Source of the DNA: Thermodesulfovibrionales bacterium
GTDB taxonomy: Bacteria; Nitrospirota; Thermodesulfovibrionia; Thermodesulfovibrionales; JdFR-86
Direction of reading: 5' to 3'
Assembly (NCBI GenBank): GCA_030682405.1
Contig: JAUXOF010000062.1
Span: 1 to 51,512, forward strand
Length of the DNA stretch: 51,512 nt
Below the pieces are notes generated by a model that saw only the letters and a program-made list of their open reading frames with translations, searched no databases and had not been told where the DNA came from. The translations under genes and the position numbers were made by a program. This document shows positions 5,881 to 17,782 of this stretch, one piece after another (positions within the stretch are counted from its first letter, which is position 1; the number at the start of each line of letters is the position of its first letter).

Positions 5881-5898
5881 ATAGGGGCATGCCCCTAT
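5881..5898. other. 18-bp perfect palindrome between convergent genes
   Basis: ATAGGGGCATGCCCCTAT lies between the second pilin and the end of the gltD-type gene, overlapping that gene's stop codon (5895-5897). Possibly a bidirectional termination hairpin, though no T-tract follows. Confidence 0.5.
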
Positions 5899-8240
5899 GC
5901 GTTCTCCACCATCTCCCATACGCCGCAGGGGCATATGCCCGCGCAGAAGCCGCAGCCTATGCACTTATCATCGTCAACGACATACTCGTATGAGCCGCCC
6001 TCTTTTTCCATGCGGCTGATTGCGCCAGAGTAGCATACGGCCTCGCACATGCGGCAGTCCCGGCATGTGGCGCAGGACATGCATATGGCTGCTTCCTCTT
6101 GGGGCTTAAACTTTCCGCCGCTTCCAAAGCGGCAAACGTCGTAATATTCGCTCTTTATTCTCTCGTAGGGGATGACCTGTTTGCCCTCCGGCACGTAGTC
6201 GTAATGCATAAGCTCGGAATGTATCACGCTGGCAGCGACCCTGCCCTGCCCTATTGCATGGGTCACAAGACCGGGCCTTGTCGCATCGCCTATGGCAAAC
6301 ACCTTGGCGTCCGAGGACTGGCCAAGCCCGTTTACGGCTATCCACCCGCTTTTGTCCGTATGCATTGACTGAGGGAGAAAGTCCACTAAAGGTGTCTCTC
6401 CAACAGATACAATCACGAGGTCCGCATTCAGGGACGAGCCGTCCTTAAAATATATCTTTTTTGCCTTTCTGTCGTAGCGCTCCGTGAATCTGGGCCAGAG
6501 TATCTTTGTCCCCTTTTCTTTTGCGTCATCAAGCTCCTTGCCGAAGGCCGCAGGCTCCTGTATATCTATAGCTGTAACGCTTTTTGCCCCGCAGTCAAAC
6601 GCCTGCACGGCCACATCCATGCCTACGTTTCCCGCGCCTATGACAACGACATCTTTGCCCTTAAGAGCAGGGAGTTTCCCGGTGTTTATGCCCTTAAGGA
6701 ACTCTATGGCAGGCACGGAATGCTCTGAGCCGGTAAACTTAAGCTCCCTCGGCTTATGCGCGCCCACCGCAACAACAACCGCATCGTGGGCCTTGTATAT
6801 CTTTTCAAACCCCTTCCGGTCTATTTTTTCCCCGAGGTAAGTTTTGACTCCTATCTCTTTGAACCGGGAAAGCTCCTTAAGGAGTATCCTGTGGGGGAGC
6901 CTCTGTCTGGGTATACACAACTCTATTTTTCCTCCGAGCCTGCCCTCTGCCTCGTAGAGGTCCACCGAGTGGCCCTTAAGAGCAAGCTGCCATGCCGCTG
7001 AAAGCCCTGCCGGACCGCCGCCTATGACCGCTATCCTATAGCCCGTCTTTTTTGCGGGCTTCGGGGCCGGAAGATTAAGCGCGAGCGCACCGAGTTCCTT
7101 TATGTTAAGCGGCCTGTCGAGTCTTCCCCTCGTACAGCTCTGCATGCAGAGGTTCGGGCATATCTGCCCGCATACGGTTGCCGGAAGCGGGCTGTACTGA
7201 AGCACCAGTTCAAGCGCCTCCTTGAGATGACCCTGCCTTATAAGCGCCGTCCTTTTATGGGACGGTATATGCGTGGGGCATGCGTATGCGCACGGAGGCG
7301 AGTACTTCTCGTTGGCCCAGACGGGTCTGTTGCGCCTGTCCGCGCCGGTAGTTATGTAAGGCAGGGTTGTCCGCTCGTGTGTTATGTATTCGGCAAATAT
7401 CCCGCCTGCTCCGACCTCTTTTTCCCACATATCATTCCTGAAGTCGGAAAGCGAGAGCTTAAGCCCCAGCCTGCCCTTCTTTTCAGCAGGCGTGTATGCG
7501 ATGAGTTTTCTCCAAGCCTCCGGAGAGGCCGTAAGTTCGCCGTAGCAGGCCGTCCTGTCTATGGCCTTAAGATAGGGCATCATCCTTTCCTTAAGCCACT
7601 GCCAGTCCTGAGGCGTAAGCGGAAGGAGCTTTACGTCATTCTCGCTAAAGCCTTTTATCTGCCCCCTGAAATAAATCGTCCCGCCGACCATCCCCACACA
7701 CGGCCGGTAACCTAATATGTTCTCCGGGTCTCTGGGGTCTACCCCGCAGACAACCGCGATGCCGCCCGCCTTGAACTCTGAAAAAGAGTCCCCGACGTCC
7801 CGGAAATACCACGACTCCGGCGGGTCGAACCGGGGGTTGTGCTTTGTCATCGTATCGCACCGCGCGCCTCCCCCGCCCTGAACAAAAAGCGTGCCTTGGG
7901 CCGCGGCGTTATGCGCGCCGTTTGTTACGTCCCCGAGCACCGTGATTTTCGCGCCGCAGTTAACCCATCCGGCATCGTCCGAGGCGTTGCCTTTGACGGT
8001 TATCTCCGTGCCGAACATCCCCATGCTTCCCAATCTCTGACCCACCGGCCCTGTGACCGTTATCCTTACGGTCTTCTCCACGGGCCATATCCTGCCACCT
8101 ATTCCGTGCTGCCCGTCGGCACGGACGAAGATGTCGCTTGCGCCATCTTTGACGGCCTCCTGTATGCGCTCCTCAAGGACGCGGGAAGAGAGCCTCTTAC
8201 CGTCTATGTTGCCCTCTATGGTTATCTTCTTAACAGGCAT
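5895..8240 (-). CDS. gltD: Glutamate synthase GltB3 (GXGXG) domain fused to GltD-type oxidoreductase with terminal ferredoxin
   Basis: 781 residues in three parts. Residues 1-230 form the Gly-rich beta-helix (GXGXG) domain that is the C-terminal part of bacterial GltB and a separate GltB3 in archaea. Residues 310-720 are a GltD-like FAD/NADPH subunit: Cys-rich CAYACPTHIPSHK and CGQICPNLCMQSCTRG for 4Fe-4S clusters, FAD motif VIGGGPAGLSAAWQLA, nucleotide motif VVIGAGNVGMDVAVQ, and the late FAD motif AIGDATRPG. The C-terminus has two ferredoxin motifs (CMSCATCRDCRMCEAVC and CIGCGFCAGICPCG). It would pass electrons to the FMN domain to make glutamate from 2-oxoglutarate and glutamine-derived ammonia. 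It is the last gene of the operon, overlapping gltB2 by 11 bases. The B3-GltD fusion is unusual against the separate archaeal subunits. Confidence 0.85.
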   Translation of the reverse strand: MPVKKITIEGNIDGKRLSSRVLEERIQEAVKDGASDIFVRADGQHGIGGRIWPVEKTVRITVTGPVGQRLGSMGMFGTEITVKGNASDDAGWVNCGAKITVLGDVTNGAHNAAAQGTLFVQGGGGARCDTMTKHNPRFDPPESWYFRDVGDSFSEFKAGGIAVVCGVDPRDPENILGYRPCVGMVGGTIYFRGQIKGFSENDVKLLPLTPQDWQWLKERMMPYLKAIDRTACYGELTASPEAWRKLIAYTPAEKKGRLGLKLSLSDFRNDMWEKEVGAGGIFAEYITHERTTLPYITTGADRRNRPVWANEKYSPPCAYACPTHIPSHKRTALIRQGHLKEALELVLQYSPLPATVCGQICPNLCMQSCTRGRLDRPLNIKELGALALNLPAPKPAKKTGYRIAVIGGGPAGLSAAWQLALKGHSVDLYEAEGRLGGKIELCIPRQRLPHRILLKELSRFKEIGVKTYLGEKIDRKGFEKIYKAHDAVVVAVGAHKPRELKFTGSEHSVPAIEFLKGINTGKLPALKGKDVVVIGAGNVGMDVAVQAFDCGAKSVTAIDIQEPAAFGKELDDAKEKGTKILWPRFTERYDRKAKKIYFKDGSSLNADLVIVSVGETPLVDFLPQSMHTDKSGWIAVNGLGQSSDAKVFAIGDATRPGLVTHAIGQGRVAASVIHSELMHYDYVPEGKQVIPYERIKSEYYDVCRFGSGGKFKPQEEAAICMSCATCRDCRMCEAVCYSGAISRMEKEGGSYEYVVDDDKCIGCGFCAGICPCGVWEMVENA

Positions 8241-9882
8241 AGTCTATCTCAAGCCTCTCTGCCATCGCCTTGTCGTCTATGCTCAGGCCGTCGGACATGC
8301 CTATCGGAAGCTCGGTGCTCCTGCCCATGGGGGCGAATATCTTTTTAAGCTCCACATCCGCGGACTTAAACACATCCACAACCCTTTCAGCCACCCTGTC
8401 CGGGTCGAGCCTCCTGTAGAGCTTCGGGTCCTGAGTGGTAATGCCTCTCGGGCAGCGGCCCGTGTTACAGAGGTTGCACCTGTTGAACTCATCCCCGAAG
8501 CAGTCTGCCGCGGCCTGCATGATGTATTTGCCTATTGAGACCGCTGATGCGCCTAACATGATGAGCGCAGCCGCATTTGCCGCAAGGTTGCCTTTTTTGC
8601 CTACTCCCCCTGAGGCTATCAGCGGAAGCTCGTTCTGCTTGCCCTGCCTCACGAGGTCAAGGTAGCAGTCCCTTATGTTGGATGCTATAGGGTGCCCCAT
8701 TTTGTCCATTGAAACGTTGTATGCAGCGCCAGTGCCCCCGTCCTCGCCGTCTATGGAGAGGCCGCCTGCATAGGGGTTTCTTGCGAGGTTGTTGAGCACC
8801 GCCCTTGCGGTCTTTGTGCCGGATATCTTGGGGAAGACAGGGACCCTGAAGCCCCATGCCATTGACATAGACTGTATCATCTTTGCGACCGCCTCCTCTA
8901 TGGAGTACTTTGTCTGGTGCGTGGGAGGGGAGGCAAGGTCCACATACATGGGCACTCCCCTTATGCCCGCTATGAGCTTAAGCACCTTGTATGACATCAA
9001 AAGCCCGCCGTCTCCGGGCTTTGCGCCCTGCCCGTACTTAATCTCTATTGCAGCCGGGTCCTCGACCATGTGCGGCAGGGCGTGTATTATCTCGTCCCAG
9101 CCGAAATATCCTGAGGCTATCTGTAAGATGAAATATTTAAGGTACCGGGATTTAAGAAGCCTCGGCGGCATCCCTCCCTCTCCCGAGCACATGACAACCG
9201 GCATGCCAGCAACCTCGTTAAGATAGGCCACTGCGGATGCAAGCCCCTCCCACATCGGAGGGGAGAGCGCGCCTATGGACATGCTCCCTATCATTATCGG
9301 ATATATCTCCCTGACCGGAGGGATGAACGTGTCGTTTGTAACTACAAGCCTTCCGCCGCTTGCCACGAGGGGAAGCTCCTCTGCCGGAAGGTTTCTTCCA
9401 AGAAGCGTCCGTATCCTGAACTCATGCCTTCCGGCATCAAGCGCCGGGTCCGTAAGCATGGATATCCTCGTAAACTTAAGCCTGTCAAGCGTGGATGTAA
9501 GGGGGTCGTTTCTTCTTCCTCCCCTCTTATAAGGCTCGCCAGCCCTGTTTTTATAGTGAAGGAACTTGTGCTGGAGGTTGAACTCAGGCTCTATGGCCTC
9601 GTTGGGGCAGACAAGCGTGCATGCGCCGCACCCGGTGCAGTATCTCTCCATGTCCGCAACCTGCCTTACTACATATACGACCTTTCTTTCGGCCTTGGGC
9701 TCGGGCACAGGCCCTGCCGAATGCACACTCCTTTGGAGCTGAACAGCAGGCTCTATGGCCTTGACCGGGCAGACCGCCGTGCACTTGCCGCAGCGCTTGC
9801 ACCTGTCATCCCTCCAGCGCACTATGTAGGGAAACTCCCTGAGGGAGATGCTATGATTAAAATCTAAATTGAGAGCGCCCAT
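8230..9882 (-). CDS. gltB2: Glutamate synthase FMN subunit with N-terminal ferredoxin domain (archaeal-type GltB2)
   Basis: About 550 residues. The N-terminal 90 carry two 4Fe-4S motifs, CKRCGKCTAVCPVKAI and CTGCGACTLVCPNEAI. The rest is the FMN-binding (beta/alpha)8 barrel that condenses ammonia with 2-oxoglutarate: MIGSMSIGALSP, CSGEGGMPP, EIKYGQGAKPGDGG, and SIDGEDGGTGAA are the conserved strands, and CNLCNTGRCPRGITTQDP supplies the 3Fe-4S cysteines. A longer frame starts at 9912, but ATG 9882, two bases after the gltB1 stop and nine bases after an AGGGG, is the better start. No glutaminase domain is present; that is the separate gltB1 upstream. Operon order gltB1-gltB2-gltB3/D, transcribed leftward from the promoter near 11136. 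Confidence 0.9.
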   Translation of the reverse strand: MGALNLDFNHSISLREFPYIVRWRDDRCKRCGKCTAVCPVKAIEPAVQLQRSVHSAGPVPEPKAERKVVYVVRQVADMERYCTGCGACTLVCPNEAIEPEFNLQHKFLHYKNRAGEPYKRGGRRNDPLTSTLDRLKFTRISMLTDPALDAGRHEFRIRTLLGRNLPAEELPLVASGGRLVVTNDTFIPPVREIYPIMIGSMSIGALSPPMWEGLASAVAYLNEVAGMPVVMCSGEGGMPPRLLKSRYLKYFILQIASGYFGWDEIIHALPHMVEDPAAIEIKYGQGAKPGDGGLLMSYKVLKLIAGIRGVPMYVDLASPPTHQTKYSIEEAVAKMIQSMSMAWGFRVPVFPKISGTKTARAVLNNLARNPYAGGLSIDGEDGGTGAAYNVSMDKMGHPIASNIRDCYLDLVRQGKQNELPLIASGGVGKKGNLAANAAALIMLGASAVSIGKYIMQAAADCFGDEFNRCNLCNTGRCPRGITTQDPKLYRRLDPDRVAERVVDVFKSADVELKKIFAPMGRSTELPIGMSDGLSIDDKAMAERLEIDYAC

Positions 9883-9883
9883 A

Positions 9884-11032
9884 TCAGCAAACCCCTGCCT
9901 TTTTTGAATCATGGGGGACTATTTCGCCCTTTAGCTGGTCCCATACCTTTACTTCCTCGGCGCCTGAAGAGACAATGACCATGCCGTACTTCATCGGGAA
10001 TACGTCCTTGGAGCCGTCCCTTTTTGGGATGGCCCTGTCAAGCCCGCACTCCTCTGAGACAAGCGCATATTTCCCCTTGACCCCTCCAACCACTCCGGGC
10101 CTCAGCTTCTTTGAGTCCTGCACCATGAAACACGTCCCGTCGGGCGTAAATCCTATGACGCAGTTCGGCCCGTCTATGGCAAGCATCCTCAGCGAGGACT
10201 TCAAGAGCCTGAGCGCGGCGCTGTCCGGCCTGCCCTCAATCTCCGGGCCCTTAAGCGGGGTTATTATGTCCTTGTAATACGTAAGCGGATACCCAAGTTG
10301 CCTTACCGCGTAGTGAAGTATGTGGGTGAAGACCTCGCTGTCGCTCTGATAGCCGGTATATCCCGGAAACCCCCTGCTTACAAGGTATTCCCTGACAGGC
10401 ACGAATGCGGTGTTCTCGCCGTTTGTCATCGAGCCGTAGCCCTGTATGAAAAACGGGTGGCAGGCGTAGAGGTTTATCTCATAGTTTGTGTTCTGCCTTC
10501 CCTGCGCAAATATTATCTTTGCCTTGAGAGGCGACTTATCAAGCCCGAAGAACTCACCGAGAGTAAGGGGGTCTCCGACCTCTTTTAAGGAAATCACATC
10601 GGGATAAAACGAAAAGACCACTATGGACTCGTCCTGCTCGCCCATCCTCCTCAGTTCAAGCCTTGTCCTTAAAAGGAGTTCTTCCTTTTCAGCCTGCGAT
10701 TTTTCAAGATACGACTCCGGATACCTGTAGACCTTTGCAAAGTAATAGTCCTTCCCGGCCACCCCCTTAACGGGCTTTACCGCCGGCGACCAGGCATGCA
10801 CTTTCTGAAAACCGCGCCGCTCCATATGCTCGTTGAGGGTCTTGTAGCCGTCCTTGGAGCATATGCCCGAAAGCACAGGGTAGTCCTTGAGCTCCCTAAA
10901 CTCCCCGCCCAAGTCCTTGAGCACAAGACCCATGCCCGAGCCGTCATGCCCCTCTTTCATCGTCTCAAGGGCAAGGATGTTCTCCATAGGCGAAAAATAC
11001 TCGCCGGAGGTTATCGCCACCAGCCTGCACAT
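9884..11032 (-). CDS. gltB1: Glutamate synthase glutaminase subunit, class II amidotransferase (GltB1)
   Basis: 382 residues beginning MCRLVAITSGEYFSP: Cys2 becomes the N-terminal nucleophile of an Ntn-type class II glutamine amidotransferase after Met removal. EGHDGSGMGLVL and the later MTNGENTAF (substrate-binding Asn-Gly pair) and YQSDSEVFTHIL are family landmarks. It hydrolyses glutamine and channels ammonia to the FMN subunit encoded by the next gene. As a stand-alone subunit it is the archaeal-type arrangement; ordinary bacterial GltB fuses all parts. First gene of the leftward operon; a roughly 70-nt leader separates it from the predicted promoter, and palindromic site A (11089-11102) lies in the initiation region. 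Shine-Dalgarno is weak (GAGGG, distant). Confidence 0.9.
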   Translation of the reverse strand: MCRLVAITSGEYFSPMENILALETMKEGHDGSGMGLVLKDLGGEFRELKDYPVLSGICSKDGYKTLNEHMERRGFQKVHAWSPAVKPVKGVAGKDYYFAKVYRYPESYLEKSQAEKEELLLRTRLELRRMGEQDESIVVFSFYPDVISLKEVGDPLTLGEFFGLDKSPLKAKIIFAQGRQNTNYEINLYACHPFFIQGYGSMTNGENTAFVPVREYLVSRGFPGYTGYQSDSEVFTHILHYAVRQLGYPLTYYKDIITPLKGPEIEGRPDSAALRLLKSSLRMLAIDGPNCVIGFTPDGTCFMVQDSKKLRPGVVGGVKGKYALVSEECGLDRAIPKRDGSKDVFPMKYGMVIVSSGAEEVKVWDQLKGEIVPHDSKKAGVC

Positions 11033-11088
11033 TTAACCGTATAAACCCTCGCTTTAAAGTATATCCCTCTTTTCCGGTCTTGCCTATC

Positions 11089-11102
11089 GGCAATCGGTTA
11101 CC
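11089..11102 (-). promoter_or_regulatory. Palindromic operator site A (glt operon)
   Basis: GGCAATCGGTTACC, matching GGYA-N6-TRCC. It lies nine bases downstream of the glt -10 element, where a bound repressor would block initiation. Confidence 0.65.
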
Positions 11103-11111
11103 ATATGCTCA

Positions 11112-11141
11112 TATCGTAAAAGATTCCTACATTATTGTCAA
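11112..11141 (-). promoter_or_regulatory. Sigma-70-type promoter of the glt operon
   Basis: On the minus strand: TTGACA (11141-11136), 18-bp spacer, TACGAT (11117-11112). Predicted start about 11105, immediately before operator A. Confidence 0.6.
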
Positions 11142-11190
11142 CGCCTTTTTCCGGGCCATAGCGCATATTCAGCCCGGCTTAATTTTGCCC

Positions 11191-11204
11191 GGCAAACGGT
11201 TACC
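11191..11204. promoter_or_regulatory. Palindromic operator site B (divergent intergenic region)
   Basis: GGCAAACGGTTACC, between the two divergent promoters: about 50 bp upstream of the glt -35 and 17 bp upstream of the -35 of the regulator gene at 11286. Could act with A or C by looping or cooperative binding. Confidence 0.65.
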
Positions 11205-11220
11205 ATTTGTTAATTTTCCC

Positions 11221-11250
11221 TTGACAAACAACCCTGCCTTTTTGTAAATT
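11221..11250 (+). promoter_or_regulatory. Sigma-70-type promoter of the KaiC-like/XRE/cupin gene
   Basis: TTGACA (11221-11226), 18-bp spacer, TAAATT (11245-11250). Operator C starts ten bases further on. Confidence 0.55.
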
Positions 11251-11260
11251 TACGTCATAA

Positions 11261-11274
11261 GGTAACCGTTTGCC
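11261..11274 (+). promoter_or_regulatory. Palindromic operator site C
   Basis: GGTAACCGTTTGCC, the exact reverse complement of site B. It lies across the predicted start of the mRNA for the gene at 11286, mirroring site A in the divergent promoter. Confidence 0.65.
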
Positions 11275-11285
11275 TAACTAAAAAC

Positions 11286-12542
11286 ATGAGCAAGATATCA
11301 ACAGGCATAAGAGACCTTGACGGGCTCATAGACTCCCTCTACATAGGAGACAATGTGATATGGGAGATAGAGGCAGGCACGTCATCCGAGGCCTTTCTCA
11401 AGGGCTTCATACGGCAGTCCATCTCAGAGGGGCAGAACATCCTGTACATCAGCTTCAATAAATCGCCCCAGAGCATACTGCACCAGCTCGGTGAGCTTCC
11501 CCGGAGCGGCTTTACCCTGCTTGACTGCTTCACCTCCGGCAAGGGGAAAAACGACAAGACCTTTATTAAGTTTTACGAGAGCGGCTCAATGAAAAACGTC
11601 TCGCGCATCGAAAGCCCCGCCGATATAAGCGCATTCTCAAACATCCTCAACTCCATCGAAGACAGCCTCCCCCCGGGGGCGCGCTACATATTCGACAGCC
11701 TCACAGGCATGCAGGACCTCTGGGGAAAGGAGGAGGCCACCTACAAGTTCTTCACCTATATGTGCCCCCGGCTCTATGACCTCGGCACCGTCGCCTACTG
11801 GGTGCTCGAAAAAGAGGCTCACAGCCAGACCTTCAAGGCGAACCTTAGGCATGTGACTCAAGCCGTCTTGGAGCTTTATAAAAGAAAGGACAGCCTCTAC
11901 ATCAAGGCGCACAAATTAGAAGGCAGGCAGAGCAGGGAGCCGTTCAAGCCCCATCCTTACAGGATAGAGGACAGGGACATCTTCATCTCGCAGCTTAAAA
12001 AAGAGCCTCTCTTGGACATCGGCTCAAAGATAAAAGAGATAAGGACAAGGCTCGGGCTGAGCCAGAAGGAGATTGCCGACAGGATAGACCTGACGCCGAG
12101 TTTCATCTCGCAGCTTGAAAACAACCAGATAAGCCCTTCGCTTAATTCGTTCATTCATATCTGCAACGCCCTCGGCACAAGCCCCGACGAGATATGGAAA
12201 GACCTCAGGGCCGGCGAGCCCTCATGGGTGATAAGGAGGGAGAAGATACTTTCCGGAGCATCCTTCTCCGTAAACGGGCTTAAGGGTTTTGACATCATAA
12301 AAAGCGGTGATATGTCCGGCTCGCTTTCAGTGCTTGAGCCCGGTTCTTCGCACAGCGGGCGACTGACAACGCACACAGGCAAGGAATTCGTATACGTCTT
12401 AAAAGGCAATGTTTCCGTAACGCTTACAGGAAGGCGGGAACTGCTTATGGAAGGCGATTCAATATTTCTCAGGGACGAAAGGCCGTCCCTGTGGAAAAAC
12501 GAGGGGGGTGATAAGGCAGAGCTTCTTGTTGTATCGCTTTAA
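11286..12542 (+). CDS. KaiC/RAD55-like ATPase-fold, XRE helix-turn-helix and cupin fusion regulator
   Basis: 418 residues, three modules. Residues 1-230 resemble KaiC/RAD55 RecA-fold proteins (ISTGIRDLDGLIDSLYIGDN at the start, Walker-B-like ARYIFDSLTGM), but the P-loop is replaced by EAGTSSEAFLKG with no GKT, so ATP hydrolysis is doubtful. Residues about 240-300 are an XRE DNA-binding domain (IKEIRTRLGLSQKEIADRI, then SFISQLENNQISPSLNSF). The C-terminus (about 335-418) is a cupin (HTGKEFVYVLKGNVSVTLTG, LMEGDSIFL) that may sense a small ligand. It is divergent from the glt operon with palindromes in between, so a nitrogen- or glutamate-linked regulator is likely; autoregulation is plausible. 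No Shine-Dalgarno precedes ATG 11286. Ligand unknown. Confidence 0.75.
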   Translation: MSKISTGIRDLDGLIDSLYIGDNVIWEIEAGTSSEAFLKGFIRQSISEGQNILYISFNKSPQSILHQLGELPRSGFTLLDCFTSGKGKNDKTFIKFYESGSMKNVSRIESPADISAFSNILNSIEDSLPPGARYIFDSLTGMQDLWGKEEATYKFFTYMCPRLYDLGTVAYWVLEKEAHSQTFKANLRHVTQAVLELYKRKDSLYIKAHKLEGRQSREPFKPHPYRIEDRDIFISQLKKEPLLDIGSKIKEIRTRLGLSQKEIADRIDLTPSFISQLENNQISPSLNSFIHICNALGTSPDEIWKDLRAGEPSWVIRREKILSGASFSVNGLKGFDIIKSGDMSGSLSVLEPGSSHSGRLTTHTGKEFVYVLKGNVSVTLTGRRELLMEGDSIFLRDERPSLWKNEGGDKAELLVVSL

Positions 12543-12664
12543 ACGGCATCCCTTTTAAGTGTGTTTTACCGTGTCATTTTTTGAGTGATTTTTTTTGCCC
12601 TTTGAGATTAGAAATACTTAATTTAGAGGGGCAAAAATTATCCACACTTAAGCGGATGCCCCGT
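12543..12664. other. Long nested inverted repeat upstream of the FMN glutamate-synthase-like gene
   Basis: Outer arms of about 21 bp (12543-12563 and 12643-12664) share TTAAGTGTG/CACACTTAA and GGCATCC/GGATGCC. An inner pair, TTTTTGCCC near 12591-12600 and GGGGCAAAAA near 12628-12638, sits within. A further small CCCG/CGGG hairpin lies at 12660-12672. The left arm begins just after the stop of the fusion regulator. Could be a terminator/leader RNA or a large protein-binding palindrome. Confidence 0.5.
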
Positions 12665-12711
12665 ATTTCGGGATGTCTTACAGGCATTAAACAACAAACA
12701 GGAGGAAAGAA

Positions 12712-14286
12712 ATGTTCAACGGAACACCAAATGCAAGTTCTGCGACAGGCACGAAAAACAGGGTCTCGGACGTTGCGCCGTACTCCGGGATATGCTCGGT
12801 ATGCCTTGACGGATGCCCCGGGCCCTGCGAGCTGGCGAAATCATCCTACAGGGGAAGGGAAGTGCTTTACCCCCGGCCATTCGGCAAGGTAACGGCCGGG
12901 GCCACGAAGCCCTACCCTGTTGACTACTCACATTTGAACATTCAGGGCACATGCGTCGGAGCGAAAGGCGTTGATGCGGACCCCGACAAGGCGGTGTTTC
13001 CGGCTGTATCCACGGAAACAAAGCTCGGAAACAAGCACAAGATAAAGCTCCGTCTGCCGATATTCACCGGAGCGCTGGGCTCAACCGACATCGCAAGGGA
13101 CAACTGGGAAGGGCTTGCCATCGGAGCGGCTATATCGGGGATAATGGTCATCATAGGCGAAAACGTGGTCGGCATGGACCCTGGCGCCGAGATTAAAAAA
13201 GGCAGGGTAGTCAAGTCCCCGGAGCTTGAGCGCAGGGTCAAGTGCTTCAAGGACTGGCAGGACAAGTACGGCGCGATAATACTCCAGCAAAACGTCGAGG
13301 ACACAAGGCTCGCCTCAGCGGAGTATGCGGTCGAGAAGCTCGGGGTCGAGTGCATCGAGCTTAAATGGGGGCAGGGCGCAAAGAACATCGGCGGAGAGGT
13401 GAAGCTTAAGACCATCGAGAGGGCGCTTGAGCTGAAGCAGAGGGGCTATGTGGTACTGCCTGACCCCGATGACTCCACTGTGCAGAAGGCATTCAAGCAG
13501 GAAGAGTTCAAGGAATTCGAGAGGCACTCAAGGCTCGGCATGGTAGACCACAAAGCATTCGTAAAAGCCGTGGAGCACTACAGGAAAGTAGGGGCCAAGT
13601 TCGTATCCTTAAAAACCGGGGCATACAGGGCGTCGGACCTCGCAAGGGCCTTAAGATACGCATCGGACGCCGAAATAGACCTCCTTACGATAGACGGCGC
13701 GGGCGGCGGAACCGGAATGAGCCCTTGGCGCATGATGAACGAATGGGGCATTCCGACGATATATCTTGAGGCCCTTACATACAGGTTCGCAAGCCAGCTT
13801 AAGGCCAAAGGCAGGTATGTGCCTGACATAGCCATGGCCGGCGGGTTCTCGCTCGAGGACCACATATTCAAGGCAATCGCCCTCGGCGCGCCGTTCGTGA
13901 AGGCCGTGTGCATGGGAAGGGCGCTGATGATTCCCGCCTTCATAGGCAAGAACATCCAGAAGTGGATTGAAGAGGACAAGCTCCCCGCGGAGATAAAAAA
14001 GCACGGGGACGTGGCAGAGCGCATATTCATAAGCTACGAGACCCTGAAGTCGTCGTTCGGCAAGGACTTCGGCAGGCTGCCTTACGGCGCCATCGCAATG
14101 CACACGCTGTGCGACAGGCTCAAGCTCGGCCTCCAGCAGTTCATGGCAGGCTCAAGGAAGTTTGCGCTCAATTACCTCGACAGGTCCGACCTCGTCTCGC
14201 TCACAAGGGAGTGCACCGATGTGACGGGCATACCCTACGTGATGGAGTCGGATGCCGAGGAGGCGGAAAGAATTCTCTTGAAATAG
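12712..14286 (+). CDS. FMN-binding glutamate synthase family protein with N-terminal Cys cluster
   Basis: 524 residues from ATG 12712 with GGAGG nine bases upstream of a purine run. An N-terminal C-x2-C-x3-C-x3-C cluster (C28, C31, C35, C39 in GICSVCLDGCPGPCELAKS) could bind an Fe-S centre. The rest is the glutamate synthase FMN barrel: LPIFTGALGSTDIARDNWEG, ELKWGQGAKNIGGEVKL, LLTIDGAGGGTGMSP and IAMAGGFSLEDHIFKAIALGAPFVKAVCMGRAL. It has no glutaminase, GXGXG or NADPH domain, so it either works with the GltB1/GltD subunits or does a different FMN reaction. It lies between the fusion regulator and nrpR, so a nitrogen-linked role is likely. It is distinct from gltB2, with little shared sequence outside the barrel motifs. 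Confidence 0.8.
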   Translation: MFNGTPNASSATGTKNRVSDVAPYSGICSVCLDGCPGPCELAKSSYRGREVLYPRPFGKVTAGATKPYPVDYSHLNIQGTCVGAKGVDADPDKAVFPAVSTETKLGNKHKIKLRLPIFTGALGSTDIARDNWEGLAIGAAISGIMVIIGENVVGMDPGAEIKKGRVVKSPELERRVKCFKDWQDKYGAIILQQNVEDTRLASAEYAVEKLGVECIELKWGQGAKNIGGEVKLKTIERALELKQRGYVVLPDPDDSTVQKAFKQEEFKEFERHSRLGMVDHKAFVKAVEHYRKVGAKFVSLKTGAYRASDLARALRYASDAEIDLLTIDGAGGGTGMSPWRMMNEWGIPTIYLEALTYRFASQLKAKGRYVPDIAMAGGFSLEDHIFKAIALGAPFVKAVCMGRALMIPAFIGKNIQKWIEEDKLPAEIKKHGDVAERIFISYETLKSSFGKDFGRLPYGAIAMHTLCDRLKLGLQQFMAGSRKFALNYLDRSDLVSLTRECTDVTGIPYVMESDAEEAERILLK

Positions 14287-14293
14287 AGTATAA

Positions 14294-14326
14294 TTTCAGG
14301 GGCGTATGAACCATACGCCCCTGAAA
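14294..14326. other. 15-bp perfect hairpin between the FMN protein gene and nrpR
   Basis: TTTCAGGGGCGTATG (14294-14308), loop AAC, CATACGCCCCTGAAA (14312-14326). No T-tract follows on the plus strand. A TATAAT at 14289-14294 abuts its left edge. May be a processing/termination hairpin or a regulator-binding palindrome. Confidence 0.6.
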
Positions 14327-14344
14327 ATCTCACGGGGGTCCGAC

Positions 14345-15334
14345 ATGACCAAAACAACGCTTGCGATACTTAAGATTCTTGAGAAGCATCGGGACACGAT
14401 ACTGGGCTCAAGGGAGATATCACGGCAGATGAAGCTCCACGGGGTCGAGCTCACGGAAAGGACCGTGAGGTATCACATGAAAATACTTGATGAAAGGGGG
14501 CTTACGAAGGTATTCGGCAAGGAAGGCAGGAAGATTACCGACAGGGGCAGGGAAGAGCTCTCAAAGGCCCTTGTGTCCGGCAAGGTCGGTTTCGTCATAA
14601 GCAAGATAGAGACCCTTTCATATCTGACGACCTTTGACATAGACAGCGAAGAGGGAGACATAATACTGAACGTATCCTATTTCCCCCAAAAGAGCCTCAG
14701 GGAAGCCTTAAAGATAATGAACCCCGTCTTCCACTCCCCGTATGTGATGAGCGACAGGGTAGTGCTCGCAAGGGAAGGGGAAAAGATAGGGGAGATGATA
14801 GTGCCGGAGGGAATGATAGGGCTCGGCACCATCTGCAGCGTTACGATAAACGGCATATTCCTTAAGGCGGGCATACCCGTCGCGTCAAAGTTCGGCGGAC
14901 TGCTTGAGATAGACGAGGGCGAGGCATCGAGGTTTCTTGCCCTCATAAGCTACGAGGGGACTTCTCTTGACCCGCTCGTCGTGTTCATCAGAAGCAGGAT
15001 GACCGCGGTCACGGATGCCGTGAAGAAGCGTTCAGGGAACATACTTGCAAGCTTCAGGGAAATACCGGTCGTCAGCATGGAGACGGCAAAAGGGCTTCTG
15101 GCAAAGCTATCGGAAAAGAACATCGGCGGCCTGATACGCATCGGGAATCCCAACCAGCCGTTCCTTGAAATGCCGGTGGGCATTGACAAGACCGGCATGG
15201 CGATAGTGGGCGGCCTCAACCCGGTTGCCGCGCTTGAGGAGGCCGGCATACGGACGGAAAGCACGGCCATGGCCGTGCTCCACAACTACTCTGAGATGCC
15301 GGAGTTCAAGGAAGCCGCAAAGGCGTTCGCATAA
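14345..15334 (+). CDS. nrpR: NrpR-type nitrogen transcriptional repressor (HTH + one DUF128 domain)
   Basis: 329 residues from ATG 14345 (GGGGG just upstream); a longer frame from 14306 would run through the hairpin. Residues 1-65 are a winged helix (TTLAILKILEKHRDTILGSREISRQM, then TERTVRYHMKILDERGLTKVFG). The rest is one DUF128/NRD effector domain with GMIGLGTICSVTINGIFL, GIPVASKFGGLLEI and IGNPNQPFLEMPVG. In methanogens NrpR represses nif, glnA and amt genes and is released by 2-oxoglutarate. The one-NRD form resembles Methanosarcina NrpRI. It sits beside glutamate synthase and glnA genes and is the best candidate for the GGYA-N6-TRCC palindromes nearby. NrpR homologues are known in some bacteria, though their biology is little described. 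Confidence 0.85.
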   Translation: MTKTTLAILKILEKHRDTILGSREISRQMKLHGVELTERTVRYHMKILDERGLTKVFGKEGRKITDRGREELSKALVSGKVGFVISKIETLSYLTTFDIDSEEGDIILNVSYFPQKSLREALKIMNPVFHSPYVMSDRVVLAREGEKIGEMIVPEGMIGLGTICSVTINGIFLKAGIPVASKFGGLLEIDEGEASRFLALISYEGTSLDPLVVFIRSRMTAVTDAVKKRSGNILASFREIPVVSMETAKGLLAKLSEKNIGGLIRIGNPNQPFLEMPVGIDKTGMAIVGGLNPVAALEEAGIRTESTAMAVLHNYSEMPEFKEAAKAFA

Positions 15335-15367
15335 AAAAAAAGGCGGCCCGCGGGCCGCCTTTTTTTG
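15332..15367. terminator. Bidirectional terminator between nrpR and glnA
   Basis: AGGCGGCCCGCGGGCCGCCT, a 20-bp perfect palindrome at 15341-15360, is flanked by A-runs on the left and T7 on the right, so it works as a rho-independent terminator for both convergent genes. Confidence 0.9.
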
Positions 15368-15381
15368 CCTTTTTCATCAGC

Positions 15382-16719
15382 CTAAAGCATCGGCAGATAT
15401 GTATCTATCTCGTAGGGGAAAACCTGTGTGCGGTAGTTGTCCCACTCGGTCCTCTTGCTCATAATAAGCTCGTTGAATATATGGTCGCCGAGGGTCTCTT
15501 TAAGGAGGTCGCTCTTTTCCGCCACCTCTATGGCCTCTATCAGGCTTCCCGGAAGCTCTCCGACTCCCATCTGCTTTCTATCCTTAGGGGAAAGGTGATA
15601 GACATCCACCTCTGTGGGGTCGACGAGCTTATAGTTTTTCTCCATGCCCCTCAGTCCGGCATTGAGCATGCAGGAAAACGCAAGATAGGGGTTGCACGCG
15701 GGGTCAGGGGAGCGGAGTTCTATCCTCGTTGCCTTCTCCTTGCCCGGCTTATAAAGCGGCACCCTCACAAGCGCAGAGCGGTTTCTTCTTGCCCAGCATA
15801 TGTAAACCGGAGCCTCGTACCCGGGCACAAGCCTCTTATAGGAGTTGACCCACTGGTTTAAGACGAGTGTTATCTCCCTTACATGCGTGAGGAGGCCCGC
15901 GGTGTATTTCTTTGCGGTGTCCGAGAGAAAATACTTGTCCTTTGCATCGAAGAACTCGTTCCTTTGGCCCTTAAAAAGAGACTGGTGGGTGTGCATCCCG
16001 CTTCCGTTGTGCCCGAACAGCGGCTTGGGCATGAACGTTGCGTAAACCCCGTGCTTTCTTGCTATCTCCTTTACAACGACCCTGTAGGTCATCACAGTGT
16101 CCGCCATGGTAATGGCGTCTGAATACCTGAGGTCTATCTCGTGCTGGGAGGGCGCAACCTCGTGGTGGGCGTACTCCACGGCTATGCCCATCTGCTCCAG
16201 AGAAAGTATGGTGTCGCGCCTGAGGTCCTCGGCCGCATCCATCATATAGTCGAAATATCCGCCCTTATCGAGGATGTCCGTGCCCTGGTTCGTCTTAAAA
16301 TAGAAGAACTCAAGCTCCGGGCCGAGATAGAGCGTATAGCCCTTTTTGGTTGCCTTCTCGACGTTCCTCTTCAGCACATACCTGGGGTCGCCCTTATACG
16401 GGGTGCCGTCCGGCTCGTATATGTCGCAGAACATCCTTGCCACGGCCTTCTCCGTGGGCCTCCACGGCAGGAGCTGAAACGTGGTGGGGTCGGGCCTTGC
16501 TATCATGTCGCTTTCATCTATCCTCGCAAACCCCTTTATAGAGGAGCCGTCAAAACCCATTCCCTCTTTGAATGCAACATCAAGCTCCTCCACCGGAAGG
16601 GCAAACCCCTTCAGCATCCCGTGGATGTCCGCAAACCAAAGCCGTATAAACTTAACGTCGTGCTTTTTAATAAGCTCTTTGACATCTTTGATGTCCCTTG
16701 CCTTAGCCATTTTAGCCAT
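15382..16719 (-). CDS. glnA: Type I glutamine synthetase (GSI-alpha)
   Basis: 445 residues; makes glutamine from glutamate, ammonia and ATP in the cytoplasm. KFIRLWFADIHGMLKGFA opens the N-terminal domain; MGFDGSSIKGF, GPELEFFYF and EVAPSQHEIDLRY are metal/substrate motifs; GHNGSGMHTHQSLF holds ATP/glutamate-binding residues; the RIELRSPDPACNPYLAFSCML region follows. The C-terminus has DVYHLSPKDRKQMGVGELPGSL, where GSI-beta enzymes carry the NLYDLPPE adenylylation loop, so this is the unadenylylated GSI-alpha type, fitting transcriptional control. Start ATG 16719 has AAGGAGG five bases upstream; a second in-frame ATG is at 16710. It converges with nrpR across a shared terminator. Confidence 0.95.
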   Translation of the reverse strand: MAKMAKARDIKDVKELIKKHDVKFIRLWFADIHGMLKGFALPVEELDVAFKEGMGFDGSSIKGFARIDESDMIARPDPTTFQLLPWRPTEKAVARMFCDIYEPDGTPYKGDPRYVLKRNVEKATKKGYTLYLGPELEFFYFKTNQGTDILDKGGYFDYMMDAAEDLRRDTILSLEQMGIAVEYAHHEVAPSQHEIDLRYSDAITMADTVMTYRVVVKEIARKHGVYATFMPKPLFGHNGSGMHTHQSLFKGQRNEFFDAKDKYFLSDTAKKYTAGLLTHVREITLVLNQWVNSYKRLVPGYEAPVYICWARRNRSALVRVPLYKPGKEKATRIELRSPDPACNPYLAFSCMLNAGLRGMEKNYKLVDPTEVDVYHLSPKDRKQMGVGELPGSLIEAIEVAEKSDLLKETLGDHIFNELIMSKRTEWDNYRTQVFPYEIDTYLPML

Positions 16720-16748
16720 TAAATCCTCCTTAAAATTATTACCTTACA

Positions 16749-16777
16749 ATCATACACTATCTCGCAGGATGCCTCAA
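16749..16777 (-). promoter_or_regulatory. Sigma-70-type promoter of glnA
   Basis: Minus strand TTGAGG (16777-16772), 17-bp spacer, TATGAT (16754-16749). GGTAATAATTT follows directly but only half matches the operator palindrome seen at the other nitrogen promoters. Confidence 0.6.
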
Positions 16778-16852
16778 TCCCCTGCCCCCAACCCGCCGTC
16801 ATGCCACCACCTCCCTTTTTTCTTTCAGCCCTTTCGCCGGGGCTCGCAGCCC

Positions 16853-17542
16853 CTACAGGAAAAATGCCTTATAGAAATTCACGGCCCTGCCGGAATACTC
16901 CTCGTAGAGCCTGTCCGTATCCTTCATGACCCGCTCGTAATCCGGGCCGTTCCTGAACCATTCCCTGAGCATCTCCTTTGTAACCTCCATGTGGAACTGA
17001 AAGCCGTATACGTATTTGCCGCAGTTAAATGCCTGATTCGGATAAAGAGAGGAGACTGCAAGGCGGGCAGCGCCCATCGGCAGGTCGAATGTGTCCCCGT
17101 GCCAGTGGAGGACCTTAAACCGCTTCCAGAAATCCCCCACGCGCGGATGGACGGCAAGCCTTCTCATGAGCGGGTCTTTAATCCCCTCTGCCGTAAGCTC
17201 TATGTCAAGCCAGCCTGTCTCCTCCGCATGCCCTTTATAGACCTCTGCTCCGAGACAGTGGGCAAGAAGCTGCGCCCCAAGGCATATGCCCAAAACCCTC
17301 ATCTGCCTGTTTAATGCCTCCCTCAGAAGCCTTGAGCCCACGGCAAGATGGGGATGCCTGTCCATCTCGTAGACCCCCATAGGCCCGCCGAGCATGACCA
17401 CCGCATCGAACTTGTCAAGCTCCGGCACAGGCTTTCCGTCCCACAGCTCAACAACCTTAAACGGCACGGAGTTTTCCCTTAGGAAGTCCCCTATTGTCCC
17501 CGGCCCCTCGGTTTTTATGTTTTTAAGTATCAAAACAGCCAT
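16853..17542 (-). CDS. Class I glutamine amidotransferase (GMP-synthase-like)
   Basis: 229 residues, a stand-alone triad glutaminase domain. LGICLGAQLLAHCLGA contains the nucleophile Cys, VYGFQFHMEVT the catalytic His and Glu, and VMLGGPMGVYE the oxyanion-strand Gly motif. It resembles the GuaA-like amidotransferases of unknown acceptor often found near nitrogen genes. It would release ammonia from glutamine for a partner enzyme or act as a glutaminase. Operator D and a promoter lie just upstream, linking it to the glutamate synthase block. The intergenic stretch to glnA (about 130 bp) holds glnA's promoter. Substrate unassigned. Confidence 0.8.
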   Translation of the reverse strand: MAVLILKNIKTEGPGTIGDFLRENSVPFKVVELWDGKPVPELDKFDAVVMLGGPMGVYEMDRHPHLAVGSRLLREALNRQMRVLGICLGAQLLAHCLGAEVYKGHAEETGWLDIELTAEGIKDPLMRRLAVHPRVGDFWKRFKVLHWHGDTFDLPMGAARLAVSSLYPNQAFNCGKYVYGFQFHMEVTKEMLREWFRNGPDYERVMKDTDRLYEEYSGRAVNFYKAFFL

Positions 17543-17574
17543 CCGGCGCCCCCCATCTTATCGCCCCCTCATAC

Positions 17575-17588
17575 GGCAAACGGTTGCC
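17575..17588 (-). promoter_or_regulatory. Palindromic operator site D (amidotransferase promoter)
   Basis: GGCAAACGGTTGCC, a near-perfect GGCAA-N4-TTGCC palindrome, 32 bp before the amidotransferase start and two bases from its -10. Confidence 0.65.
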
Positions 17589-17590
17589 GT

Positions 17591-17620
17591 ATGTTATTCA
17601 AATTTGTAAATCTTTGTCAA
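17591..17620 (-). promoter_or_regulatory. Sigma-70-type promoter of the amidotransferase gene
   Basis: Minus strand TTGACA (17620-17615), 18-bp spacer, TAACAT (17596-17591). Same 18-bp spacing as the other two operator-linked promoters. Confidence 0.5.
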
Positions 17621-17702
17621 GCACCCCGCCCTATGGGTCGTGACCCACGGGTCATAGACTTGACCGGCCACTGGCTCGCAGAGAATCTTTCTTTATTCTA
17701 CC

Positions 17703-17782
17703 TTACCCCTCCAACCTCCCCTGATTAAAGGGAGGATTAAATCCCCTCCTTACTAAGGAGGGGTTAGGGGAGGTCATTTCTC
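17703..17782. repeat. Inverted pair of C/G-run hairpin units
   Basis: Two abutting units in opposite orientation around an ATTAAAT centre, related to those at 1192-1231 and 20387-20477. The 17543-18070 gap otherwise holds operator D with its promoter, a GGGTC-GT-GACCC palindrome near 17637, and the direct repeat at 17873. I see no gene in it. Confidence 0.65.

Follow-up and report, generated by a model that had tools for sequence, protein, structure and literature searches.

Which protein reads a set of four short palindromes among the nitrogen assimilation genes of a bacterium is the question raised by a stretch of DNA from Thermodesulfovibrionales bacterium (GCA_030682405.1; family-level lineage JdFR-86 in GTDB). 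The window, i.e. the whole stretch analysed, covers positions 1 to 51,512 of the forward strand of contig JAUXOF010000062.1, which is contig C36 of a 2.03-Mb genome in 87 contigs (G000). An earlier note on this DNA had proposed that the palindromes bind an archaeal-type nitrogen repressor, NrpR, working at bacterial sigma-70 promoters, with the XRE domain of a fusion protein encoded at 11286 as the alternative binder. The motif, its placement and its association with nrpR all supported the first proposal. From these sequence comparisons, the palindromes are very probably the operators of the NrpR encoded at 14345, and the genes behind them would form a bacterial NrpR regulon with autoregulation, in which 2-oxoglutarate presumably lifts the repression.

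All four palindromes (O1 to O4 in Table 1) were found where the earlier note had placed them, at promoters of nitrogen genes, and all of them fit the pattern that it gave, GGYA-N6-TRCC. This loose form was observed 10 times in the window against a shuffle mean of 2.87, and 1 of 100 shuffles reached 10. As a genome-wide signal it was rejected as too loose (164 matches vs 106 for the reversed pattern, which was the control in all scans), and it was tightened to GGYAANCGNTTRCC, which all four window palindromes also fit. The tight motif occurs five times in the genome and its reversed control not at all; four of the five sites are in the window and the fifth is at position 8571 of contig C54. When one mismatch was allowed, 16 matches (the 5 exact ones included) were found vs 10 in the control, i.e. 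no clear extra sites. The C54 site lies 9 nt past a TATCAT hexamer resembling a -10 element and just before the start of a gene for a GAF-AAA+ sigma-54 activator, a start which it overlaps if the first possible one is used. The neighbour of this activator gene is glnB-amtB. Before glnB-amtB of the window genome no match with fewer than 3 mismatches was found, and nif was rejected as a target there, since no nifH exceeded the family cut-off (the two matches obtained were weak, with no more than 27 bits vs the required 394). In some relatives the targets include glnB-amtB, glnA, gdh and nifH.

When 149 genomes of the order Thermodesulfovibrionales were searched with the tight motif, 134 sites were observed vs 27 for the control (totals summed from the per-genome table). 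Flanking DNA was available for 133 of them, one site in G033 having never been listed. A site was called target-linked if a matching reading frame started -60 to 400 bp from it. The reference targets were the nitrogen genes of the window, the fusion gene and the C54 activator, plus a second glnA, nifH, glnB, amtB, gdh and a KaiC-PPDK_N gene. By this rule 93 of the 133 sites precede a nitrogen gene or the gene of the fusion regulator, although 7 of the 93 count only through the added references (second glnA, nifH, glnB-amtB, gdh and KaiC-PPDK_N), which were added because they had been seen beside sites. The enrichment that the earlier note predicted before other nitrogen genes was confirmed, as 73 of the 93 precede a nitrogen gene other than the fusion gene; the remaining 20 have only the fusion gene or a KaiC-like gene as target. 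Sites inside a frame of at least 150 codons were 35 of the 40 other sites vs 10 of the 93 target-linked ones. Outside the motif, C or A precedes GG in 92 % of the sites and G or A follows CC in 91 %; the invariant bases of the logo are fixed by the pattern requirement itself.

A core pattern, GGYAAN4TTRCC, was also applied to loci named nrpR (best 80 of 271 kept, 79 distinct, 1.2 Mb; some are from genomes already in the 149-genome set). It gave 67 matches, 63 of them upstream of nitrogen genes or the fusion gene, and none in the reversed control. A target-linked site is present at 40 of the 79 loci, and 39 are without one in the DNA examined. At three loci of genus g14 (L129, L131 and L133, from G094, G110 and G102), the operator is located 122-217 bp upstream of nifH, with the divergent fusion gene on its other side, and NrpR may therefore control nifH directly there. 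The operator lies upstream of nrpR itself in G074, G021, G031 and three Deltaproteobacteria, and in all of these but G074 it adjoins a divergent glutamate-synthase gene. The deltaproteobacterial loci (L383, L388 and L390) have a second nrpR gene and, near the promoter between the divergent nrpR2 and gltS2, a pair of operator-like sites spaced 22 bp apart.

That the palindromes merely happen to lie near nitrogen genes, through chance or base composition, would agree with how common the loose pattern is. It is nevertheless hardly conceivable, given the counts of the tight motif in the genome and in the order, and given that the core appeared in only 0.05 % of single-base-shuffled gltA promoters.

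The position of the sites within promoters fits repression. Promoters were modelled as the best TTGACA-N15-19-TATAAT match near a site, with a score out of 12. A scan of 10950-17750 gave seven matches vs a shuffle mean of 4.8, which is unremarkable as a number; those scoring 10 are exactly the three beside operators, and the remaining four score 9. In the earlier note, three sites were placed 2-10 nt past a -10 element with an 18-bp spacer. The distances (10, 10 and 2 nt) stood, and so did the 18-nt spacer for the fusion and amidotransferase promoters, but the spacer of the glt promoter is 17 nt. Among the 93 target-linked sites, 88 have a promoter score of at least 9, with the operator starting 2-28 nt past the -10 element in 83 and upstream in 5. 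When the flanks were shuffled, 42 of 93 reached that score and the positions were spread from -46 to +60. An operator past the -10 element, over the presumed start point, occupies the spot where a repressor would hinder the polymerase.

The earlier note also placed a one-NRD NrpR about 3 kb away, and the predicted protein agrees with this, its gene being 3 kb from the first three sites. It scores 64.0 bits against PF08461 (cut-off 21.4) and 284.2 bits against PF01995 (cut-off 25), and with an N-terminal HTH_12 followed by an NRD it is, judged by its domains, a member of the NrpR family. Methanocaldococcus jannaschii MJ0159 (PDB 3nek) matches residues 80-322 of the protein read from a start at 14348, i.e. 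its effector-domain part only (E-value 2.3e-31). NrpRI of Methanosarcina mazei has one NRD, as the window protein has.

GGTA-N6-TACC is given as a potential operator of M. mazei NrpRI (PMC3177094), in agreement with the earlier note. The window sites share with it the 14-bp palindrome, the GGTA/TACC ends and the link to nitrogen regulation. They differ in the bacterial host, the sigma-70-like promoters, the fixed inner bases (AA-N-CG-N-TT) and the Y/R allowed at positions 3 and 12. The NrpR of Methanococcus maripaludis, a nitrogen-assimilation repressor, has the operator GGAA-N6-TTCC before nif, glnK-amtB and glnA (PMC2723118). Its targets are thus of the kind found here, whereas its ends are GGAA/TTCC instead of GGYA/TRCC, and the molybdate transporters and alanine symporter on the M. 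maripaludis list did not turn up among our targets. Archaeal NrpR is released, or its binding weakened, by 2-oxoglutarate (PMC11957540). A 14-bp palindrome with GG-A-N6-T-CC ends at nitrogen promoters is what an operator of this family would look like, and the sites described here have that form.

Besides NrpR, the KaiC-XRE-cupin fusion protein was considered as the binder, with NrpR as a bystander. Presence of NrpR was scored with PF01995. G059 (21 bits, under the Pfam cut-off) was scored as lacking NrpR, G131 was reassigned as NrpR-bearing (contig-edge fragment, E-value 2.5e-43), and contig-edge fragments such as those of G046, G049 and G100 were scored as NrpR-bearing. After two re-assignments NrpR was counted in 83 of the 149 genomes, and the fusion in 47, partial matches in G106 and G114 included. 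At least one target-linked site was present in 37 of 41 genomes with both genes, 18 of 42 with NrpR only, 1 of 6 with the fusion only and 4 of 60 with neither. With targets other than the fusion or KaiC-like genes, the counts for the same classes were 28/41, 17/42, 1/6 and 4/60.

As a cleaner test, the 330 bp before gltA were compared in 125 of the 127 genomes with this gene (G071, at a contig end, and G135, a partial match, were left out). The core was found in 47 of 67 promoters with NrpR vs 4 of 58 without (Fisher p=9e-14), so that the motif in relatives lacking nrpR, which the earlier note named as evidence against its proposal, is rare and not absent. By class, the core was present in 34/36 (both genes), 13/31 (NrpR only), 1/6 (fusion only) and 3/52 (neither). 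Kinship was handled by strata of family, fusion and NrpR state and by genus collapse, not by a tree. When the genomes were collapsed by genus and NrpR state, 28/43 vs 3/31 was obtained (p=1.2e-6). Five genera include both NrpR states. The gltA site occurs only with NrpR in g17 and g29, and in neither state in g33 and g9; in g19 it occurs with NrpR and in 1 of 6 genomes without it (G114, whose contig breaks off within the fusion gene).

The fusion gene is among the commonest targets. Where both genes occur, 41 of 63 target-linked sites count it among their targets, and 31 of the 41 genomes concerned carry an exact site ahead of it; with NrpR left out of account, it also predicts the gltA site within families (p=0.0002). 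However, when labels were permuted within family and NrpR class, the fusion showed no association with the gltA site (p=0.21), whereas NrpR predicted it within family and fusion class (p=0.0002). The 18 NrpR-only genomes with sites (17 without G111, where the target is a KaiC-like-PPDK_N gene) have no fusion to account for them. A stand-alone XRE-cupin protein was rejected as a substitute. When these 18 genomes were searched with the XRE-cupin part, within a 25-genome search, only short matches of 33-41 % identity were observed, in five of them, and two of these are cupin remnants.

Remnants of the fusion gene tell the same way. G103 retains its first 26 codons before gltS2, G070 has lost the start codon and the KaiC and XRE parts, and G055 has a cupin fragment only; all three have lost the XRE part and kept nrpR plus an exact operator (that of G055 lies 337 bp ahead of the gltA frame and so falls beyond the 330 bp tested). 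In G045, G120 and G104, which lack NrpR, the closest match within 300 bp ahead of the fusion gene has 3, 3 and 5 mismatches, respectively. Five of the six genomes with a fusion match and no NrpR are without an exact site, and the sixth is G114, which has sites. The fusion match of G106 is partial, and G139 has two sites with one mismatch each; these sites and the mismatched fusion promoters look as if they were decaying. With a PuuR-like XRE-cupin autoregulator, the operator would be expected to follow the XRE protein, and here it follows nrpR. Operators persist without XRE, and we consider the XRE domain an improbable reader of the palindromes.

In the fusion protein and its relatives (L088-L135), the KaiC-like domain has no Walker A loop by eye. 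EAGTSSEAFL stands in its place, similar in the other fusions inspected, and the domain may therefore sense instead of hydrolyse.

Together with the within-family association of the fusion gene, several exceptions weigh against NrpR as the reader of the sites. The gltA site occurs without NrpR in G079, G105, G059 and G114. Gaps in the assembly may account for G114 (contig end) and G059 (86 % complete), while G079 (100 % complete) and G105 (one contig, 91 % complete) are hard to dismiss. Conversely, 20 of 67 NrpR-bearing genomes have no core within 330 bp of gltA (10 in family f4, 6 in f7 and 4 elsewhere). In the Deltaproteobacteria, a looser core gave 36 matches genome-wide vs 38 in the control; enrichment was rejected there, and the conserved site pair in L383, L388 and L390 is the sole support in this group. 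In five of the ten f4 genomes the exact site is instead located ahead of the sigma-54 activator, and in G060, of f7, ahead of glnB-amtB. The gltA site of f7 genomes G006, G030, G109 and G129 differs in its centre (e.g. GGCAAATTTTTGCC) and fits the core, not the tight motif. Exact sites before glnA are present in G129 and G141. Overall, the operator follows nrpR as a strong association, not as a strict rule.

G079 and G105, with a perfect gltA site and no detectable nrpR, would be explained if a further DNA-binding protein, co-inherited with nrpR, read the sites, and our survey of regulators in these genomes was partial. Such a protein would have to share the operator ends of the potential M. 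mazei NrpRI site and act upstream of nrpR itself in some genomes, on targets that overlap the glnA, glnK-amtB and nif of archaeal NrpR (PMC2723118). We regard it as having little probability.

With NrpR as the reader, regulation would proceed as follows. When nitrogen is ample, NrpR would occupy the 14-bp sites at or just past the presumed transcription starts and would block sigma-70 RNA polymerase at the glt operon, at the row of fusion gene, gltS2 and nrpR, and at the amidotransferase(-glnA) unit; elsewhere it would block the sigma-54 activator gene beside glnB-amtB. When nitrogen is short, 2-oxoglutarate would rise and bind the NRD, NrpR would be released and the assimilation genes would be switched on. 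The row of fusion gene, gltS2 and nrpR is predicted to be one transcript. As nrpR is the last gene of this row, with a terminator-like hairpin behind it, NrpR probably limits its own expression through O3. The amidotransferase gene and glnA are possibly one transcript as well; a weaker promoter-like match (9/12) is present ahead of glnA, which may have a promoter of its own.

For the order as a whole, we lean slightly towards an autoregulated archaeal-type NrpR as the master nitrogen switch. It would act at sigma-70 promoters of glutamate synthase and, depending on the lineage, of glutamine synthetase, glutamate dehydrogenase, the PII-ammonium transporter pair and nifH. It would also command a second tier, consisting of the sigma-54 activator and the KaiC-like-XRE-cupin regulator with its degenerate-looking nucleotide-binding loop, which would have been lost in single lineages while the NrpR layer stayed.

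Archaeal promoters are of the TATA/BRE type. If the proposal is true, one repressor family works on these and on bacterial sigma-70 promoters. By 2009 NrpR had been stated to occur in 'certain Bacteria' (PMC2723118), and Thermodesulfovibrio is a genus with a reported nitrogen fixer (PMC12501866). No operator or regulon of a bacterial NrpR was found in the literature searched, whose coverage left out most subscription journals and regulon databases. As far as seen, this is therefore a known repressor family with an apparently undescribed bacterial regulon at sigma-70-like promoters. A candidate operator and regulon can now be offered for the NrpR homologues of an order of anaerobes to which Thermodesulfovibrio is related. 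The motif is open to simple binding assays, and lineages that have lost nrpR or the fusion gene make it possible to trace how operators decay.

Table 1 Features of the window, grouped by proposed transcription unit
Feature	Position	Strand	Remarks
Operator O1, GGCAATCGGTTACC	11089..11102	.	Starts 10 nt past the glt -10; kept before gltA in relatives
Sigma-70-like glt operon promoter, TTGACA-17-TACGAT	11113..11141	-	Promoter scan
gltA-type amidotransferase (our label), first gene of glt operon	9884..11032	-	No Pfam/NCBIfam match; named by its place before the synthase genes
Glutamate synthase domain + ferredoxin domains	8230..9912	-	Domain search
GXGXG + FAD/NAD oxidoreductase subunit of glutamate synthase	5895..8240	-	Domain search
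Operator O2, GGCAAACGGTTACC	11191..11204	.	Upstream of the -35 of the fusion gene, 16 nt between
Sigma-70-like fusion-gene promoter, TTGACA-18-TAAATT	11221..11250	+	Promoter scan
Operator O3, GGTAACCGTTTGCC	11261..11274	.	10 nt after the -10, ahead of fusion gene-gltS2-nrpR
KaiC-like + XRE + cupin fusion regulator	11286..12542	+	Proposed target, not general binder; domain search, cross-genome tests
gltS2 (our label), second glutamate-synthase-like gene between fusion gene and nrpR	12712..14286	+	PF01645
nrpR, winged helix HTH_12 + one NRD1_2	14345..15334	+	Proposed binder; PF01995 E 8.6e-85, PF08461 E 1.2e-17, PDB 3nek E 2.3e-31
Intrinsic-terminator-like hairpin after nrpR	15335..15366	+	
Operator O4, GGCAAACGGTTGCC	17575..17588	.	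Starts 2 nt past the amidotransferase-gene -10; position shared by G008 and G021
Sigma-70-like amidotransferase-gene promoter, TTGACA-18-TAACAT	17591..17620	-	Promoter scan
Class-I glutamine amidotransferase gene	16853..17542	-	Domain search
glnA, glutamine synthetase	15382..16719	-	133 bp downstream of the amidotransferase gene

The glutamate synthase of the window (5895-11032) is split into amidotransferase-like, synthase and GXGXG/FAD genes, and the second synthase-like gene lies beside nrpR. On contig C54 (locus L208, about 7150-7240), the sigma-54 activator has no C-terminal helix-turn-helix in Pfam. Its gene converges with a short amtB frame (309 aa), the two overlapping at their 3' ends, and both look truncated. 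Another recurrent neighbour of nrpR or gdh encodes a protein that is KaiC-like at its start, with a PPDK_N domain (phosphoenolpyruvate-synthase-like) in L123 and L383 (10968-13571); it was also seen in L118. The operator precedes a gene of this kind in G111 and G118.

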